Of a DNA stretch of 64,000 bases, positions 27,558-35,617 are shown piece by piece. The position numbers and the translations under genes are program-made. Location of the stretch: assembly GCA_018816865.1 (NCBI GenBank), contig JAHIUW010000017.1:1-64000 (forward strand), read 5' to 3'. This DNA comes from Pseudomonadota bacterium. GTDB lineage: Bacteria > Desulfobacterota > Desulfovibrionia > Desulfovibrionales > Desulfovibrionaceae. The notes under the pieces are model-generated. The model had not been told where the DNA came from. It made no database searches and was given only the letters and a program-made list of their open reading frames with translations. Each line of letters begins with the position of its first letter. Within the stretch, counting starts at the first letter, position 1.

Positions 27558-28394
27558 TTATTCCAGTGCGGGCAAGAACTCCTGCCGCAAACGTCTGTAT
27601 GCCCCATTGATGATCAGCTTGCGGGCCTGCATCTGAAACTCGTCCAGCCGCCCGACCAGTGGTGACAACTTGGAAAAGACCACATAGACCGGCTGTTCCT
27701 CGCGGTAGCCATAGGGTGCTTTTTCGATCTCGGCTTCCAGCCCCAGACTCCTGATGCGGTAGTCCGTGGCTGCTTCGGTACCGATGAAGGCGTCAACCCG
27801 ACCATGGATCAACATATTGATCTCCTGAAAGGCCTTACCGAAAAGCACCTTGCGAAGGAGCTCGTCACGATCGAATTTCTCAAAATAGGACGCGCCCCGC
27901 CCCACCCCGATCGTCAGGCCGTACAAATCCTCATAACACTGGATCAAATGAGCCCGCCCGCGCTTCAAGTAGAACGCCTTGTTCGTATCCCAACGATACG
28001 GAGGATTGATGAAGTGCAGATAAAGCTCCCGCTCCGGGCGGTGCAGCATCCCCACCATGCAATCAAGATCGCCGGTTTCCATCATTCGCAATGCCCGCAC
28101 GAACGGGCACTCCACAATCTGAACCTCCAGCCCCATCTTCTCGGCGATCAAGCGCACGAATTCAATATCCACGCCAGAGTATTGACCGTCCGGGGTCACG
28201 ATTTTCCAGGGCGGCAGTTCGTTGAAGGCCAGCCGCAGCACGGCCTTGTCCATAGCCCCCGCATGGGCAACCCCGAGGAGCAGCCACACAAGCAGCAAAA
28301 CGCAAGCATTGCGCACCATTATTTTTGTACCGCCAGCCATGAGCTTGTCGTTCGGCAAAACGTGACTCCACTTTTTTAATCGGTTCCTCAGCAT
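27558..28394 (-). CDS. Periplasmic solute-binding protein family 3 (paralogue 1)
   Basis: An SBP_bac_3-type protein of 278 aa with a signal segment VRNACVLLLVWLLLGVAHAG. The fold markers are LRLAFNELPPWK, SGVDIEFVRLIAEKMGLE and GVGRGASYFEKFDRDELL. It is closely similar to the next gene upstream (28530-29294), indicating tandem duplication. No ABC permease or ATPase adjoins, so it may be an orphan receptor or sensor for a small polar ligand. The ATG at 28394 has GGAAGGG upstream but gives a long n-region; M at 28319 would start right at the signal peptide. Confidence 0.8.
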   Translation of the reverse strand: MLRNRLKKWSHVLPNDKLMAGGTKIMVRNACVLLLVWLLLGVAHAGAMDKAVLRLAFNELPPWKIVTPDGQYSGVDIEFVRLIAEKMGLEVQIVECPFVRALRMMETGDLDCMVGMLHRPERELYLHFINPPYRWDTNKAFYLKRGRAHLIQCYEDLYGLTIGVGRGASYFEKFDRDELLRKVLFGKAFQEINMLIHGRVDAFIGTEAATDYRIRSLGLEAEIEKAPYGYREEQPVYVVFSKLSPLVGRLDEFQMQARKLIINGAYRRLRQEFLPALE

Positions 28395-28470: not shown

Positions 28471-28501
28471 AAACAAAAACCCCGTGCGACATCGCCCGGG
28501 G
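28471..28501 (-). terminator. Rho-independent terminator of solute-binding paralogue 2
   Basis: On the minus strand GCCCCG, a loop and CGGGG are followed by TTTTTG. It lies about 30 bases past the stop at 28530. The stem is short (5-6 bp) with a 12-nt loop. Confidence 0.6.
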
Positions 28502-28529
28502 CTTCTGAGATCAATCTGGAGAAACGATC

Positions 28530-29294
28530 CTAGTGCGGCAGATACTTCCAGCGGAGCCGGTCATATTCCCCGCTCTGCAGCAGTTCCCGCACGATGCAGC
28601 TCAGTTCTGCCCTGCGTTCGGCCAGGGGAGAGAGCTTGGAGATCACGATGTAGACAGGCTGAACCTTGCGATAGACGAACGGAGCCTTCTCGATCTGATC
28701 CTCAAGCCCCATTTCCCGAATCAGGTAGTCGGCAGCGGCTTCGGTCTGAATAAAGGCATCGAAACGACCGTGTAGCAGTTTCTTGATATTCAGACGCCCG
28801 TTGCTCACAGCCTCCTTGTGGATCAGGGGATCATGATCGAACGTCGGAAAATACTTCTCCTCACGCCCCACGCCAATGGTCAGATCGTACAGATCCGTAT
28901 AGCAGCGTATCAACTGTCCCTGGCCTTTCTTCAGATAGAAGGCCTTGTTCGAATACCTTCTGTAGGGCGGTTCCACAAAATCCAGATACGTCTCCCGATC
29001 CGCGCGTCGCAGGACACCGGTCATCACATCGACGGTTCCGTTTTCCAGCATCCTGAGACCTCGCACAAACGGAGCCTCCACAAACTCCAAATGCAGATCC
29101 ATCCGCTCGGCTACGAGTCGAAACAGCTCCGTGTCGATTCCTTCCTTACTCCCGTTAGGTCCTGCAATCTTCCACGGCGGAAGCTCACTGAAGGCAACGC
29201 GCAGCGATTGCTGGGCAGCATATCCAGAAGGGCAGAACACCATAAGAACAAAAATAGCCAAAAAACTCAGACAACGGCAAACAGACGTAGGCAC
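28530..29294 (-). CDS. Periplasmic solute-binding protein family 3 (paralogue 2)
   Basis: A 254-aa SBP_bac_3-type protein with a signal peptide (FLAIFVLMVFCPSGYAA). It shares the run LPPWKI, the ligand-site region FVRGLRM and YSNKAFYLKKG with the neighbouring paralogue. I chose a GTG start at 29294 because GAAGGA lies 7 nt upstream and it places the signal peptide at the N-terminus. No transporter genes adjoin either copy. Confidence 0.78.
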   Translation of the reverse strand: MPTSVCRCLSFLAIFVLMVFCPSGYAAQQSLRVAFSELPPWKIAGPNGSKEGIDTELFRLVAERMDLHLEFVEAPFVRGLRMLENGTVDVMTGVLRRADRETYLDFVEPPYRRYSNKAFYLKKGQGQLIRCYTDLYDLTIGVGREEKYFPTFDHDPLIHKEAVSNGRLNIKKLLHGRFDAFIQTEAAADYLIREMGLEDQIEKAPFVYRKVQPVYIVISKLSPLAERRAELSCIVRELLQSGEYDRLRWKYLPH

Positions 29295-29501
29295 ACTGGA
29301 ATCCTTCTCTTGCTGTGATATATCAGAATAGCCATCCAAGCACAGGGATATTCCGAACGGCATGGATATGATGCTCTCTCCCAAACAACAAGCCTAAATT
29401 GAACTGATTTTCATTGATTGAGCCCCTCGCGACCAATCATCAGGGCGCCCCGCGGATCACTCCACGGGGCGCCCATGCCGGCGACGTTGCAGACAATGAC
29501 A

Positions 29502-30161
29502 TCAGGCCCGTTCGGACTTCTTCTCCCATTCCTGGACCGAATCCACGTCCTCGACCTCCTCCCAGCCAGTGAACATCGCGATGATGTGCGCGGACACGGC
29601 GTGGCCCGTGGTGGTCATGTAGACGTGGACCACCAGGAAGGCCAAAAAGCCAAAGGCTCCGGCCATGTGCAGCAGGGCCACCATATCCAGGGACAGGGAG
29701 GTGGCAATGCCGAGTTCCGCCCACTGGTTGTAGAACAGGTACAGAAGCCCCGTGCCGATCTGGAAGGGGATGAGCACCGCGGAGATGGAGACGTAGGTCA
29801 GGCGTTGCAGGGGATTGTGCTTGCGCCGCACCGTCTTGGGCACGGGATGCGGTTCGCCCCTGAAGATACCGCTGACGTAATACATCGCCACCTCATAGAT
29901 CTTCTCCATGGTGAGGATGTACTGCTTCCATTCACCCGTGGTGGCCAGCCAGAAGACGATGAACACATACAGGCCAAGCCAGCTCCAGGCACAGAAGTCG
30001 TGGATGGCCACGGCCTTCTCGAACCCGAAGAGGTCGATGGTCCCATGGACCTCGAACCCGGTCAGGGCCAAGGTCACGATCAGCGCCCCCTGGGCCCAGT
30101 GCCAGAAACGCTCGAACCGGGTATAGAGGTAGATCTTCTTCATTCCTTGTTTCATGGGCAT
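29502..30161 (-). CDS. Cytochrome b (hydrogenase/formate-dehydrogenase type) membrane subunit
   Basis: A 219-aa di-heme b-type membrane anchor. Histidines expected to bind heme are visible in RFERFWHWAQGALI, KAVAIHDFCAW, ALLHMAGAFG and VVHVYMTTTGH, arranged in four or five helices as in HyaC/FdnI. It starts 4 bases after the octaheme cytochrome stop, with the ribosome binding site inside that gene's end. It should link the periplasmic cytochrome to the quinone pool. Confidence 0.85.
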   Translation of the reverse strand: MPMKQGMKKIYLYTRFERFWHWAQGALIVTLALTGFEVHGTIDLFGFEKAVAIHDFCAWSWLGLYVFIVFWLATTGEWKQYILTMEKIYEVAMYYVSGIFRGEPHPVPKTVRRKHNPLQRLTYVSISAVLIPFQIGTGLLYLFYNQWAELGIATSLSLDMVALLHMAGAFGFLAFLVVHVYMTTTGHAVSAHIIAMFTGWEEVEDVDSVQEWEKKSERA

Positions 30162-30164
30162 GAG

Positions 30165-31847
30165 CTAGTCCTCCTTCCCGTTGCGTCTGCGCGAGGCCAT
30201 ACGTAGCCCGCCGTGGATGAACACACCGACGAATGAGGCCAGCACAACCAGCCAACCCGCTAAATCCAGACCCGCCTGGGAATCACGACCGGGCATGTAG
30301 AATCCGGCCAGGTTGGCCAGGCGGCTGGTGTTGGAATGACATTCGTTGCAGGAGACCGCGTTGTCCTTGGGAGCCACCATGTGCGTGGTGGGGAAGACCC
30401 ACTCGGTTTCCACAAAGCCATACTCACCGGAATAGTCCAGGGAGGCATAGGCCATGCCCGCCTTGATGGCGCGGCCCCAGTCATAGGTCTTCCAGTAGGC
30501 GTCGTCATCCTTGCCGAACAGATGCGCGAGCACCATGTTCTTGTTCACCGGGTCGTAGGGTGTCTTGCCGCGGTGCACCTTGAAGGGCATGATGCGCGAC
30601 TTGGGATCATTCCTCTCGCCCACGGGCCAGGACAGCTTGACCACTCCGGAATCGTCGATCTTGTCCGTGGCCCGGATGCTCTCGATGGTGCCATTGAACC
30701 AGAAATACTCGGGCACCACGTTCATCTCCCAGCGGAAATCACCCTTCTTGCTGTCGTAGGAATGCTTGCCCAGCGGACCATCGAGCACATAGGGCTTGCC
30801 GTCCTTCATCTTGCCCGCAGTTGACCAGTCCCATTCCATCTTGGTGGGTTTTTCACGGGCGAATTCGGGGATGTGGCAGGCCTGGCAGGCCACCTTGTCT
30901 GTATGGTCATTGGCCTTGTGCCCGGCCCTGTGCGGGGTGGCGCTGTGGCAGGACTCGCAGGTGATCTTGGTCGCCAGATCATCCTCCAGCAGACTCTTGC
31001 GCTCCTCGGCAGCAGGATGGGAATAGATGCGCCCCGCAATATTGTGGACCGACGTGGTGTGGCAGCGGGTGCAGTCGAAGTTCTGACCGTCCACGCCCAT
31101 GTGCACGTCCAGCTTCTTGGACGGCTTGAGCAGGGACGAATCCAGGTCGCCGTGCTTGACCCCATCGCCGCCGCCGCCGTTGAAATGGCAGGAACCGCAA
31201 TTGGAGCGTGAGGGGCGGCCCAGACTGGCCACGATGGTCTTGTAGTCCGGGGGATAGAACTGCTCGGCGCCCGCGAACTTCTTGGGTTCCTTGACCGGAT
31301 ACCCGGCCATGGTGGGGAACTTTTTGTAGGTCCCGGACTGATCATGGCAGACCAGACAGTCCACCTTGCTCTGGTCCGTGAAATCGAAGTTCTTGTCCTT
31401 CCAGCCATACCCTGCATGACAACTTGTGCAACGAGCCTCGTTGCTTTGAATATTCATTCAAAAATTGTTGATCACAAGGCCGCCCTTGCCGACCTGTTCT
31501 TCCTTGGGCAGGTTGGGGTCCAACCACGTCCAGTGGATGGTCTTGTGGAATTGGATGGCGGCCTCGGTGTGGCAGGTCAGGCAGGCCTTGGTCAGGTCCT
31601 CGGGAGTCTTGAAATCCTGTTTCAGGATCTCGTGCTTGGAGTGGTCCGAAGTGATCCAGAGCTGCTGTTCCTTCACGGCCTGGCGCGCCAACTGGCGACC
31701 AGGGGCCGCATCGTCGTCACCCGCCGGGGTGGACGTGTCCACTGCGGCGAGCGACGGCAGCACCAACAGCAGCGTCAGCATCAAGGAGGAAGCAACGGTA
31801 AGCGCCGCGTGAAGTGCGGCGCGGGCCAAAGACAGGCATACGGTCAT
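30165..31847 (-). CDS. Octaheme tetrathionate-reductase-family cytochrome c with in-frame TGA (predicted selenocysteine 130)
   Basis: A periplasmic multiheme reductase of 560 aa read through one TGA at 31460-31458. There is a signal peptide (about 18-35), eight CxxCH heme sites at residues 89, 140, 164, 217, 259, 297, 321 and 500, and a C-terminal helix anchor at about 527-548. The frame is unbroken apart from the TGA, and heme 1 lies upstream of it with hemes 2-8 downstream. The TGA falls in VINNF-TGA-MNIQSNEARCTSC, where family members, as I recall, have Cys after NNF near the active-site heme. A hairpin fitting a bacterial SECIS follows. A gene caller would split it at 31458. The ATG at 31847 follows AGGGGG. 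Relatives reduce tetrathionate, nitrite or hydroxylamine; the substrate here is unknown. Confidence 0.85.
31428..31444 (-). promoter_or_regulatory. Candidate bacterial SECIS hairpin
   Basis: On the mRNA, GCAACGA-GGC-UCGUUGC forms a perfect 7-bp stem with a 3-nt loop. The stem starts 13 nt and the loop 20 nt after the UGA. Known bacterial SECIS elements have the loop 16-37 nt after UGA and a G among the first two loop bases; both hold. The AGG-CU apex resembles the AGGUCU apex of E. coli fdhF. Codons in this stretch are unusually A/T-ending for the gene, as expected if the RNA structure is selected. Confidence 0.75.
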
Positions 31848-31933
31848 ACAGACACCCCCTGGGGTTCCCAATCCTTGCGGCGTCCCAGCGTGGACACCGC
31901 AAGCGGTTGCAACGGGGGGTGTTGTGCCCCCCG

Positions 31934-32347
31934 CTAGGAGCTGCAGTTCTCGTAGTTGATCTGCGAGATGGTGATCGAATCAAGAATGTCGTTCATGGCC
32001 TTGGTGGCCTCGACCCAGACATTCCTGACGTTGCACTGGGGCGACCGCGTGCAGAACTCCTGGTCGCCAACACAGTCCGTCAGATTGATTCCACCCTCCA
32101 GCAACCGGACCACTTCGCCCACCGTAATTTCGCTCGGTGACTTGGTCAGAACATGCCCGCCCTTGGGGCCGCGCACGCTGTCCAGGTACCCACCGCGCTT
32201 GAGCGGACGAATCAACTGCTCAAGATACTTCACCGAGACACCAAGTCTCTTGGAAATATCACTCACGGACACGGGTTTTCCGTTGGAGTTCTCCGCGATA
32301 TCCAGCAGCATTCTGGTTCCGTAACGGCTACGAGTTGACAGCTTCAT
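31934..32347 (-). CDS. Rrf2-family Fe-S transcription regulator
   Basis: A 137-aa winged-helix regulator. The N-terminus MKLSTRSRYGTRMLLDIAEN and the helix-turn-helix SDISKRLGVSVKYLEQLI followed by RGPKGGHVL are typical of Rrf2/IscR. Three cysteines in the pattern C-x6-C-x5-C (DCVGDQEFCTRSPQC) are suited to bind an iron-sulfur cluster. It lies between the cytochrome b gene and the octaheme gene on the same strand, so it probably senses redox, NO or a sulfur species and controls this operon. AGGTAAAGG precedes the ATG. Confidence 0.9.
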   Translation of the reverse strand: MKLSTRSRYGTRMLLDIAENSNGKPVSVSDISKRLGVSVKYLEQLIRPLKRGGYLDSVRGPKGGHVLTKSPSEITVGEVVRLLEGGINLTDCVGDQEFCTRSPQCNVRNVWVEATKAMNDILDSITISQINYENCSS

Positions 32348-32356
32348 CCTTTACCT

Positions 32357-32429
32357 CCCGGCATGGAGTGATTTCAATGGGTTACGCCTAATTATCTTGG
32401 TTTAGCGCACACGTTACACCCATGCCGGG
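32357..32429. promoter_or_regulatory. 10-bp inverted repeat framing the Rrf2 promoter
   Basis: CCCGGCATGG (32357-32366) and CCATGCCGGG (32420-32429) are exact complements 53 bases apart. They bracket the likely Rrf2 promoter (minus-strand GATAAT near 32395), and the inner arm overlaps its ribosome binding site. Inside, GGGTTACG and CGTTACACCC form an imperfect second pair. Two operator arms with looping, or an mRNA hairpin hiding the ribosome binding site, are both possible. Confidence 0.5.
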
Positions 32430-32496
32430 TTATTTCCAATACTTTTCCCTGATAAAATGTAGGTGATTAAATGCATCTATACCCCGCTGCTAGGCA

Positions 32497-32967
32497 TCAA
32501 TCCATACGGGGCGGGCGCTTCTCCATGATCTGTACGAGATACGGCTGGGACAGCCTGCGGGCGGTCAAGGCCAGAACCCCGAAAAGCATCATTGCAGCGA
32601 GGTGCGCCCAGTCCACTGCCATGACCACGGACGGACTGTACCAGAGGTCCGGGTCGTTCTTGGACACCCTCACCAAGCCGGTCACCACCAGCAGCGCCAG
32701 CGCCAGTACCCGCCAGCGCCCCGTGGACGTCAGGCCCCAGCCCCTCGCAAAACAGGTATTAGCAATCCAATAACACACCTGGAACAAAAAGACAGCCGCC
32801 GCCAGGTAATGCAGGGAATGGGTCAACCCGAAATCTCCCAGCCAGGACAACCCCGGAATGCTGGTCATGTAATAACGGTTGAACAGCGGCATCTGCGCCA
32901 GGCCGGTCACCGCCAGCAGCGAGAGACTGGCGGTCCAGAGGCGGGACATCCAGGGGCTAGCGTTCAT
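32497..32967 (-). CDS. Four-helix cytochrome b-like membrane subunit
   Basis: A 156-aa membrane protein with four hydrophobic helices. Candidate heme ligands lie in LTHSLHYLAAAVFLF and DWAHLAAMMLFG, one His-bearing helix in each half. It overlaps the upstream Fe-S subunit gene by 11 bases, so the two products probably form one complex that moves electrons between quinone and the periplasm. I do not recognise a precise named family. Confidence 0.7.
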   Translation of the reverse strand: MNASPWMSRLWTASLSLLAVTGLAQMPLFNRYYMTSIPGLSWLGDFGLTHSLHYLAAAVFLFQVCYWIANTCFARGWGLTSTGRWRVLALALLVVTGLVRVSKNDPDLWYSPSVVMAVDWAHLAAMMLFGVLALTARRLSQPYLVQIMEKRPPRMD

Positions 32968-33976
32968 GACCGCCCTCCCCGCCTTTCATGCCATGCACAA
33001 AGGTCAGCAGCCCGGCGGCCAGCCCCATGAACGGGGCGGCGGCAACCACAGTCGCCAGACTCTCGTCCCGGGCCATGACATCCTCTGCCGGACCAAGGTG
33101 CGGTTGGCCTGGCCCCTTGGCGATGGCCTCGTTCAGGACATCGAAGGGCACGGGTGAGACATAGAGGGTATTGGTGCCGCCGCCTTCTTCCAGACCGTAG
33201 AGAAAGCCGCCGGTCTCGGCGACCAGGGCCTTGGCGCGGGCGATGATTTCCGAACGCGGGCCGATGCTCTGCACGCCCTCGGGACAGGCCTCGATACATG
33301 CGGGCAACTCGCCTTGGGCAACACGGTCGTAGCAGCGGTCGCACTTGTACATCACCCCATTGCCCGCATATTCGGGCAAGAGATCCAGGTACAACCCAAC
33401 GCCGGACTGGCGCTGGGGGATGCCCCAGGGGCAGACCTTGCGGCACTTGGCCCCGCCCAGGCAAATGGCCTCGTTGATGCGCACGATGCCGTTGTCCTGC
33501 TTCAGGGCCGCGCCAAAGGGGCAGAGGTCGGCACAGGGCGGGTTCACGCAATGCATGCAGCGCCGGGGGATATTCACTTCCAGAGACTCGCCGTCCTTTT
33601 GGACTTCGGCAGTCTGGATGGTCAGCCAGTTGTAGGGGGTCAGGCGGTCCGTCACATCGCGGCGGCCCGACCAGTCCTCGACCCTGGTGCGCGAATGCGG
33701 TCTGGGGCGTGGAATCGCCCCCTGGGGCTCGGGCTTCTTATGGGCATTGGCCTCGGCGCAGGCCTCCACGCAGGCCCCGCAGCCAATGCATTTGGACAAG
33801 TCCAGCAGGGTGGCCAAGTCCTCACCCCGGGACGAGATCGACCCCGTCCCATCCGTGCCGGTTGTCGCACCGGTCTTTGCGGCAGCGTGGACAGCCGAGG
33901 CCGCAGCCCCGGCAGGTGCGGCAGCCACCGCGGCGCCACCCACACCCAAGGCCTTGAGGAATTTTCTTCGATTCAT
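32957..33976 (-). CDS. Tat-exported 4Fe-4S electron-transfer subunit
   Basis: A 339-aa periplasmic ferredoxin-like protein of the HybA/DmsB type. The Tat motif NRRKFLKALG is at residues 2-11. Four cluster motifs are visible: CIGCGACVEAC, CMHCVNPPCADLCP, CLGGAKCRKVCP and CDRCYDRVAQGELPACIEACP split across its ligands. The C-terminus has a hydrophobic helix (VVAAAPFMGLAAGLLTFV) that may anchor it. I chose the ATG at 33976, directly before the Tat motif; 33997 is possible. It is the first gene of the respiratory operon. Confidence 0.87.
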   Translation of the reverse strand: MNRRKFLKALGVGGAAVAAAPAGAAASAVHAAAKTGATTGTDGTGSISSRGEDLATLLDLSKCIGCGACVEACAEANAHKKPEPQGAIPRPRPHSRTRVEDWSGRRDVTDRLTPYNWLTIQTAEVQKDGESLEVNIPRRCMHCVNPPCADLCPFGAALKQDNGIVRINEAICLGGAKCRKVCPWGIPQRQSGVGLYLDLLPEYAGNGVMYKCDRCYDRVAQGELPACIEACPEGVQSIGPRSEIIARAKALVAETGGFLYGLEEGGGTNTLYVSPVPFDVLNEAIAKGPGQPHLGPAEDVMARDESLATVVAAAPFMGLAAGLLTFVHGMKGGEGGHER

Positions 33977-34160
33977 GCGCGGAGTCTCTTTTGTCATGGG
34001 TCCGGAACCATCACCCGTCACGGGCGTTTCAATCCAGAGTCAGTCATAGCAGTTGCCGTGCCGATTCCGGCGCAGAACCGAGGACTCCTGTTCAAGCCAT
34101 GCAGGATCTAGGCTCCCGGAACATCTCCCCTTCAGGACCAGTGCCTTGCCAAGCAAATAA

Positions 34161-34201
34161 TTAAGCACTATTTAAGCATGTGATGAAGCAACTGCTTAAA
34201 T
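34161..34201. promoter_or_regulatory. Operator-like repeats TTAAGCA upstream of the sigma-54 activator
   Basis: A perfect 9-bp inverted repeat, ATTTAAGCA (34170-34178) and TGCTTAAAT (34193-34201), is preceded by an extra TTAAGCA at 34161-34167. It lies 15 bases upstream of the activator gene and about 190 bases upstream of the divergent Fe-S operon. That is a suitable place for autoregulation and for an enhancer. No convincing GG-N10-GC sigma-54 promoter was found in 33977-34160. Confidence 0.55.
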
Positions 34202-34216
34202 ACTGTTGAGGATAGA

Positions 34217-35617
34217 ATGAATCAGGATTCCGTAAAGAACTATCTGGAAGGCATTATCGAGACCATGAGCGAGGGCCTGCTCATCGTGGGTCGCGACGGC
34301 CGCATCTCCATGGTCAACGAGGCCCTAGAAAAGCTCACGGGCTTCAAACGCCAGGAGTTGTTGGGCAAGCCCTGCACGGTCCTGCAATGCGATGCCTGCA
34401 AGCTGTCCATCAAGGAGGGCCGCGACCATTGGTGCAGGCTGTTCGACACCAAGAAGGAATCCCGCCAGCACTGCCGCATCCTGCGCAAGGACGGGACCAC
34501 GGTGGAGGTCATCAAGAACGCCACCCTGCTCAGCGAGGGCGGCGAGGTCCTGGCCAGCGTGGAGACCCTGACGGACATCAGCGCCATCACCGAGCGCGAC
34601 CGCAGGATCGAAGAACTGTCGCGACTGTTCGGCACGGGTTTCCACGGCATGGTGGGCAATTCTGCCCCCATGCGCCGCCTATTCTCCATCCTGGAACGCG
34701 CCGCGCGCTCGGACGCGCCGGTGATCATCTACGGGGAATCGGGCACGGGCAAGGAGCTGGCGGCCCAGGCCATTCACGACATGGGGCCCCGCTCGGACAA
34801 GCCCTTCGTACAGTTCAACTGCGCGGCGCTCAACGAGTCCCTGCTGGAAAGCGAACTCTTCGGCCACGTCAAGGGGGCCTTCACCGGGGCCATCCGCCAC
34901 CGCCAGGGCCGCTTCGAGGCCGCGCATCAGGGCGACATCTTCCTGGACGAGATCGGGGACGTCCCCCTGAACACTCAGGTCAAGCTGTTGCGAGTGCTGG
35001 AGAACAAGACCCTGGAGCGGGTGGGCGACCATCGTCCCGTGGAGGTGGACGTGCGCATCATCACCGCCACCAACCGCAACCTGCAGGACCTTGTGAGCCA
35101 GGGCCGGTTCCGCGAGGACTTCTTCTACCGCATCAACGTCATCCCCATCCATATTACGCCGCTGCGCGAGCGCGTGGCGGACATCCCCTTGCTGGCGCGG
35201 CACTTCATGACCGAGATCTCGGCACGCTTTGACAAAAAGGCCTGCGGGGCCACCCCGGAGGCCATGCGCCTGCTGGCGCGCTACCCCTGGCCGGGCAACG
35301 TGCGCGAACTGAAAAGCGCCCTGGAATACGCCTGTATGATCACGGATCAGGGACCTCTGGCCCCGGAGCACCTGCCCCCGCAAGTCCAGGAGGTAGCCCG
35401 TCCTGAGGACATTAAAAAAGGCCCCGGATACAAGTCTGAAGCCGATACCAAGGCCACTAATGCCTATTTCAGCCCTAGGGAGGCACTTCTTGACGCCCTG
35501 AGACGCTCAGGAGGCAACCAATCCCAGGCGGCTCGCATCCTGGGCGTCAACCGCGGCACCGTGCTCAATCGGATGCGCAAATACGGGGTGGATCTGAAAA
35601 AGGTCATTGATTCGTAG
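34217..35617 (+). CDS. Sigma-54-dependent activator with Cys-containing PAS domain
   Basis: A 466-aa enhancer-binding protein. The PAS domain (about residues 8-125) carries a cysteine-rich loop (LQCDACKLSIKEG, then HWC and QHC) that could bind a metal or cluster or sense redox. The AAA+ domain (about 140-375) has Walker A GESGTGKE, the sigma-54 loop GAFTGA and Walker B FLDEIGD. A Fis-type helix-turn-helix ends the protein (SQAARILGVNRGTVLNRM). It is divergent from the Fe-S/octaheme operon and probably activates it. GAGGATAGA precedes the ATG. Confidence 0.92.
   Translation: MNQDSVKNYLEGIIETMSEGLLIVGRDGRISMVNEALEKLTGFKRQELLGKPCTVLQCDACKLSIKEGRDHWCRLFDTKKESRQHCRILRKDGTTVEVIKNATLLSEGGEVLASVETLTDISAITERDRRIEELSRLFGTGFHGMVGNSAPMRRLFSILERAARSDAPVIIYGESGTGKELAAQAIHDMGPRSDKPFVQFNCAALNESLLESELFGHVKGAFTGAIRHRQGRFEAAHQGDIFLDEIGDVPLNTQVKLLRVLENKTLERVGDHRPVEVDVRIITATNRNLQDLVSQGRFREDFFYRINVIPIHITPLRERVADIPLLARHFMTEISARFDKKACGATPEAMRLLARYPWPGNVRELKSALEYACMITDQGPLAPEHLPPQVQEVARPEDIKKGPGYKSEADTKATNAYFSPREALLDALRRSGGNQSQAARILGVNRGTVLNRMRKYGVDLKKVIDS

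Follow-up and report, generated by a model that had tools for sequence, protein, structure and literature searches.

A predicted selenocysteine in place of a conserved cysteine in an octaheme cytochrome c of the tetrathionate reductase family

A locus on contig JAHIUW010000017.1 of a Desulfovibrionaceae genome (assembly GCA_018816865.1, deposited as Pseudomonadota bacterium) very probably encodes, judging from sequence comparison, one recoded octaheme reductase of the tetrathionate reductase family (TIGR04315) in which the cysteine of the INNFC motif is replaced by selenocysteine (Sec). The locus lies in a window of 64,000 nucleotides, which is the whole stretch of DNA analysed here (positions 1 to 64,000 of the contig, forward strand), and the features under discussion are collected in Table 1. 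The only in-frame stop before the end of the reading frame is the TGA at codon 130 of 560, and the frame holds eight CXXCH motifs (residues 89, 140, 164, 217, 259, 297, 321, and 500), one of them N-terminal and seven C-terminal to the TGA. Under the standard code, the gene is cut in two, giving a piece with a single heme motif and another with seven. An earlier note, made from the letters alone, had described a frame open save for one TGA, with motif 1 before it and motifs 2–8 after it, one signal peptide and one membrane anchor, and had expected automated annotation to split the gene; the frame, the motif positions and the split are borne out, and the hydrophobic N-terminal segment, recognized by eye, and the helix at residues 525–555 fit the proposed signal peptide and anchor.

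Table 1. Positions in the window of the reductase gene, elements within it and neighbouring genes
Feature	Position	Strand	Remarks
Sec octaheme cytochrome c, tetrathionate reductase family (predicted)	30165..31847	(-)	560 residues via one TGA readthrough
TGA codon 130, predicted to be read as selenocysteine	31458..31460	(-)	Equivalent to Cys64 of 1SP3
Signal-peptide-like hydrophobic N-terminus, residues 1-35	31743..31847	(-)	Sequence by eye; model helix 2-34
C-terminal membrane helix, residues 525-555	30183..30275	(-)	Sequence and model
SECIS-like hairpin type I, GCAACGA-GGC-TCGTTGC	31428..31444	(-)	Stem nt 17-23/27-33, loop nt 24-26 (T of TGA = nt 1)
Cytochrome b561-type membrane subunit	29502..30161	(-)	PF01292 E 1.9e-24; directly downstream of the reductase
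Rrf2-family regulator	31934..32347	(-)	TIGR00738 134.5 bits, PF02082; immediately upstream
HybA-like ferredoxin-type Fe-S protein, Tat-like leader	32957..34021	(-)	Profile matches
Small membrane protein, paired with the Fe-S protein	32497..32967	(-)	No Pfam/NCBIfam match
PAS/sigma-54-dependent activator, divergent	34217..35617	(+)	PF00158 and PAS

The translation read through the TGA matches the TIGR04315 profile with 634.6 bits (cut-off 375) over profile positions 2–440 of 440, and the genome-wide family search also returns the window protein above the cut-off with one TGA inside. The octaheme cytochrome of Shewanella oneidensis (1SP3) was matched both by phmmer (E 3.7e-128) and, using the predicted model, by Foldseek (E 2.2e-48). 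The model, built by AlphaFold2 with Cys at position 130, has a mean pLDDT of 82.4, with low confidence in residues 35–63 and parts of 269–312, and superposes on 1SP3 with a Z of 40.1 and an rmsd of 2.3 over 420 aligned residues (49% identity); the remaining rows of the VIA-align comparison had Z < 4 and were left unused. As modelled, the window protein has the fold of the octaheme tetrathionate reductase (OTR).

In the alignment, the window TGA falls on the Cys of the INNFC motif of 1SP3 (Cys64, counted along the chain), ten residues ahead of the heme 2 motif (C74-T-S-C77-H78 in OTR, CTSCH 140–144 in the window protein). Among 80 loci (kept of 91 that six short peptide patterns had retrieved, and hence a biased sample) and the window gene, the codon at this site is TGC in 42, TGT in 32, and TGA in seven, with the six TGA loci other than the window titled Desulfobacterales, Salidesulfovibrio, Thermodesulfobacteriales, Thermodesulfatator, Thermodesulfobacteriaceae, and Deltaproteobacteria. 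A survey of the window’s phylum (395 genomes, with scoring limited to four candidates in each) returned 78 matches above the cut-off, spread over 69 genomes, and in-frame TGA occurs in 31 of these matches, TAA or TAG in none. The 78 survey matches and the 80 loci were brought together in a full alignment, for which 164 hits and the window were used as input and the 158 rows with summed BLAST bits >280 were counted, with the window gene entering once (as L001) and six hits below 280 bits left out (two of L180 and one each of L181, L182, L062, and L117). Site 130 is Cys in 120 of these rows, TGA in 37 (window included), and Thr in one (L179). In each of the 37 TGA rows, there are eight CXXCH motifs, with a single TGA between the outermost two, and the 36 rows besides the window become 33 once near-copies are removed. 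Three genomes (G134, G184, and G331) possess both the Sec and the Cys form. In the phylum of G414, the genome of L035 (titled Acidobacteria), TGA was found in none of the 37 single-stretch rows above the cut-off, nor in the split match in G543. The placement of TGA on a column that is otherwise Cys (157/158 rows for the two together), with no TAA or TAG in the survey, is more than chance.

Downstream of the TGA, the window RNA can form a hairpin that begins 13 nt past the stop and has a 7-bp stem and a GGC loop (type I). This hairpin is identical letter for letter in six Sec rows, the window included, and the other 31 Sec rows possess a second hairpin (type II), mostly CTGGTGC-AGGT-GCACCAG, with the loop AGTT in three. 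The full seven pairs are present in the type I register in all six type I Sec rows vs 2 of 120 Cys rows (L027, discussed below, and L153), and in the type II register in all 31 type II Sec rows vs none of the 120 Cys rows; the pairs in L153, which has a different sequence, were taken as chance. Within type II, L166 has a C-G pair replaced by U-A, with both sides changed, and two rows have G-U where others have G-C, while in L163 and L164, for which the hairpin finder returned a competing hairpin, the fixed register shows a complete type II stem. The mean folding energy of nt 4–42 is −12.2 kcal/mol for the 37 Sec rows vs −6.7 kcal/mol for the 120 Cys rows. Compared with shuffled sequences, the stability of the window hairpin is modest (z −2.45, with 4 of 200 shuffles as stable; z −2.07, with 6 of 200), and a search of Rfam returned no match in positions 28500–35000 at E up to 1. 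Both formate dehydrogenases of the host have a stem after their TGA with the same GGC loop, at nt 27–29, and the host selD (G000:C21:41386-42303, L011) has a post-TGA hairpin in the register of the window with the loop GGA.

The type II hairpin also leaves a mark on the coding sequence. Once near-copies are excluded, Arg139 is encoded by AGG in all 25 type II rows with Arg at this position vs 3 of the 73 Cys rows that have Arg (Fisher p 2.4e-20, kinship ignored), a choice of codon that goes along with the hairpin RNA. Cys138 occurs in 31 of the 37 Sec rows, all of type II, and in none of the 121 other rows, and its TGC codon lies inside the hairpin. A role for Cys138 as a selenenyl-sulfide partner of Sec was considered and set aside because the six type I Sec proteins, including that of the window, have Ala; based on the sequences, hitchhiking of Cys138 on the hairpin RNA would be at least as likely as a partner role.

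Against this distribution, a recent nonsense mutation or a miscalled base in a Cys gene is a highly improbable origin of the TGA, even though TGA is one base from both Cys codons and the genome is a draft, and this reading was rejected: the TGA recurs at the same codon in other genomes, in rows that each retain eight CXXCH motifs, the survey that found TGA found neither TAA nor TAG, and both the hairpin and the choice of codon are constrained. Equally hard to credit is a locus with two proteins, in which a fragment with one heme would be followed by a seven-heme protein whose translation restarts at the ATG next to the stop (TGAATG). The next codon is indeed ATG in the window, and among the 37 Sec rows it is ATG in 5 and GTG, a possible start, in 8, but it is ATC, ATT, ATA, or GTC in the other 24. 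Further, the attachment of c-type heme takes place in the periplasm and needs an export signal, which the second piece does not have; the restart was rejected based on the 24 rows without a start codon and the missing signal.

The host genome (3.64 Mb, 42 contigs) has the components needed to insert Sec, including selA (606 bits), selB (392 bits), selD (345 bits), and tRNA-Sec (76 bits), the last also called by ARAGORN with the anticodon TCA, and in-frame TGA codons are present in its selD and both formate dehydrogenases. Across the family, selB was above the cut-off in all seven genomes that hold the six TGA loci of the 80-locus set and L027, though only as a piece in the genome of L027. Among 71 genomes with the family or near relatives (the 68 other survey genomes with matches above the cut-off, G154, G268, and G044), selA was found in 67, Sec and Cys holders alike, and so its presence is of no use in discriminating between the two forms; it was not found in G394, G300, G288, and G095, and the first two of these hold Sec rows. 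The earlier note had proposed to look for a conserved Cys at position 130, for homologues with TGA at the same site and for the Sec machinery in the host, all three of which were found, and its central claim that Sec replaces the conserved Cys is very probably right given the alignment, the machinery, the TGA homologues, and the SECIS-like hairpin.

The Sec and Cys forms are interspersed in the phylogeny. A quick maximum-likelihood tree of 153 rows (the 158 rows minus five near-copies >98% identical, with the columns around the site excluded and SH-aLRT as the only support) contains a minimum of six changes between Sec and Cys, or five if only starred branches are believed, and the type I Sec rows are scattered through a clade that comprises 26 rows with Cys and 6 with Sec. 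A direction of change is suggested by a single locus. L027 (titled Desulfatitalea, a metagenome-assembled genome (MAG); L027:5070-5105) has TGT at the site, followed by the 17-nt type I hairpin unchanged, and in the tree forms a pair with the Sec row L109 inside the type I clade. This hairpin is a probable SECIS fossil in a Cys gene, and the simplest reading is that a recent Sec-to-Cys change left the SECIS element behind, with a base error in the MAG as the alternative.

Beyond the family proper, there are indications of a further Sec lineage amongst more distant relatives. Genomes G154 and G268 have relatives (L180:2790-4703 (+)/L193 and L181 (-)/L194, respectively) that are 69% identical to each other and, for the G154 copy, score 199 bits against TIGR04315, under the family cut-off. 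In both, a TGA aligns with codon 130, in a gapped stretch of the alignment, and nine other distinct frames aligned with them have Cys there. The RNA past the TGA forms neither the type I nor the type II hairpin. This branch probably represents a further Sec lineage, with less support than the main family.

Several genes around the reductase may have a role in its supply of electrons and its regulation (Table 1). A homologue of the cytochrome b561 subunit is found on the same strand and closely downstream in 33 of the 37 Sec rows, and downstream in 70 of the 121 other rows (anywhere in the available stretch, with three about 2 kb off); this subunit is the likely quinol-linked electron donor. 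In Thermosulfurimonas dismutans, the OTR gene is likewise beside a cytochrome b gene (TDIS_1882/1883; PMC4911364), though the available part of that report, unlike the window gene, gives no sign of Sec, which is not mentioned there. Given the gene directly downstream and the like pair in T. dismutans, quinol is the most likely source of electrons, with cytochrome b passing them on to the octaheme protein. The HybA-like Fe-S protein is a possible further electron input; a close homologue (61–62%) together with one of the small membrane protein was found only in L112 and L114, where the two precede the reductase gene, in a collection where many loci have little upstream DNA. Homologues of the PAS/sigma-54 activator are near several Sec and Cys members of the family, often divergent, which suggests that the activator may regulate the reductase. 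Neighbourhood was also considered as a clue to the substrate and abandoned, as proteins picked from six Sec loci (L030, L061, L081, L137, L163, and L166) belong to housekeeping, signalling, and transport families; a sigma-54 activator was among them at L166, and three of the proteins matched no NCBIfam entry. Elsewhere in the window, two adjacent and similar frames on the reverse strand (27558-28394 and 28530-29384) look, by eye, like periplasmic solute-binding proteins.

The proposed mechanism begins with UGA 130, which would be decoded by SelB and Sec-tRNA-Sec under the guidance of the GGC-loop hairpin 13 nt downstream, yielding a reductase that is predicted to be periplasmic and membrane-anchored. 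Electrons would move from the quinone pool to the downstream cytochrome b561 and along the heme chain to heme 2, the putatively lysine-ligated heme of CTSCH 140–144. There, the selenolate of Sec130 may attack or protonate the substrate, which could be an S–S compound such as tetrathionate, or nitrite or hydroxylamine, and the heme would re-reduce the resulting selenenyl intermediate. All three of these compounds have been given as OTR substrates (PMC4911364, citing Atkinson 2007).

Whether the catalytic step is indeed carried out by Sec130 at the lysine-ligated heme is an evenly balanced question. Somewhat short of even, and offered tentatively, is the wider proposal that heme-selenolate catalysis, with Sec130 as a nucleophile or a transient iron ligand, goes together with repeated Sec/Cys exchange, two SECIS hairpins, and Sec in the distant L180/L193 and L181/L194 branch. 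Sec may instead be inserted without being catalytic, either shielding the pocket from oxidation or substituting for Cys with no functional consequence, a reading that is on the unlikely side and yet has the pattern of exchange in its favour: the tree of 153 rows switches between Sec and Cys at least six times, L027 points to a replacement of Sec by Cys, and the Thr of L179 counts against the residue being required in every member. Against it, the near-universal presence of Cys or Sec ten residues ahead of the heme 2 motif suggests that a chalcogen is required at this position.

Heme group II of OTR, bound by C74-XX-C77-H78, is lysine-ligated, with Lys56 named as the ligand (PMC3769277, in the portion available), and a lysine ligand at the active-site heme is also given in the accessible text of PMC12285233. 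A second candidate for the ligand is Lys153. Both lysines are conserved in the family: K121, the counterpart of Lys56, occurs in 157 of the 158 rows, with an X in the remaining row, while all 158 have K231, the counterpart of Lys153. In the window protein, either K121 or K231 may be the ligand.

The status of TIGR04315 as a selenoprotein family has already been annotated, and what is new here is where the Sec lies, the pair of SECIS hairpins, the number of Sec/Cys exchanges and, more tentatively, the probable fossil and the possible second branch. In the open-access papers covered by the search, no earlier description was found of where the Sec is placed, of either SECIS type, of the fossil, or of a possible second Sec branch, and the available portions of PMC12013277, PMC8318568, and PMC2628731 hold nothing closer to a Sec octaheme cytochrome. 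With the gene split under the standard code, it is easy to overlook or miscount a respiratory enzyme. Additionally, the family offers a natural series of Cys and Sec at one site near a catalytic heme, to which the genomes with both forms belong, and in which the contribution of selenium to multiheme catalysis can be tested; the probable fossil suggests the direction of one of the changes in this series.

The closest known systems include an entry in a 2026 review (PMC13188914) that, in its available part, lists a TIGR04315 octaheme c-type cytochrome amongst the selenoprotein families as ‘GenBank annotated’, with the motif not available. Its example, WP_331457571.1, is from the same family as the window protein and has one Sec; as the entry gives no motif, position or SECIS element in that part, the same Sec site as in the window is assumed. 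A cytochrome c selenoprotein, ExtKL, has been predicted in Geobacter (gsu2937-gsu2936, NF040886; PMC5877670 and PMC13188914, as far as their available text goes) and is, like the window protein, a multiheme cytochrome c whose frame continues across a Sec codon. It represents a different family, the window protein having no match to NF040886 at E up to 0.001. An older listing includes a ‘cytochrome c family protein, pfam13435’ selenoprotein (PMC9312934, available part), and entries of this type may touch the TIGR04315 family, given that the window protein has a weak match to PF13435 (22.3 bits, cut-off 20.8).

A further close system is the OTR of S. oneidensis (1SP3; primary paper Mowat 2004). 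Both proteins possess the heme domain with eight CXXCH motifs, and residues 66–524 of the model span chain 1–437 of 1SP3, which leaves the solved chain without space for a C-terminal anchor. Next to the family members from Shewanella and Ferrimonas (L087, L092, and L093), no homologue of the cytochrome b561 at the window locus was found. The window protein has counterparts of Lys153 and Asp150, pocket residues of OTR, and where the Shewanella enzyme has Cys64, the window protein is predicted to have Sec at the equivalent position.
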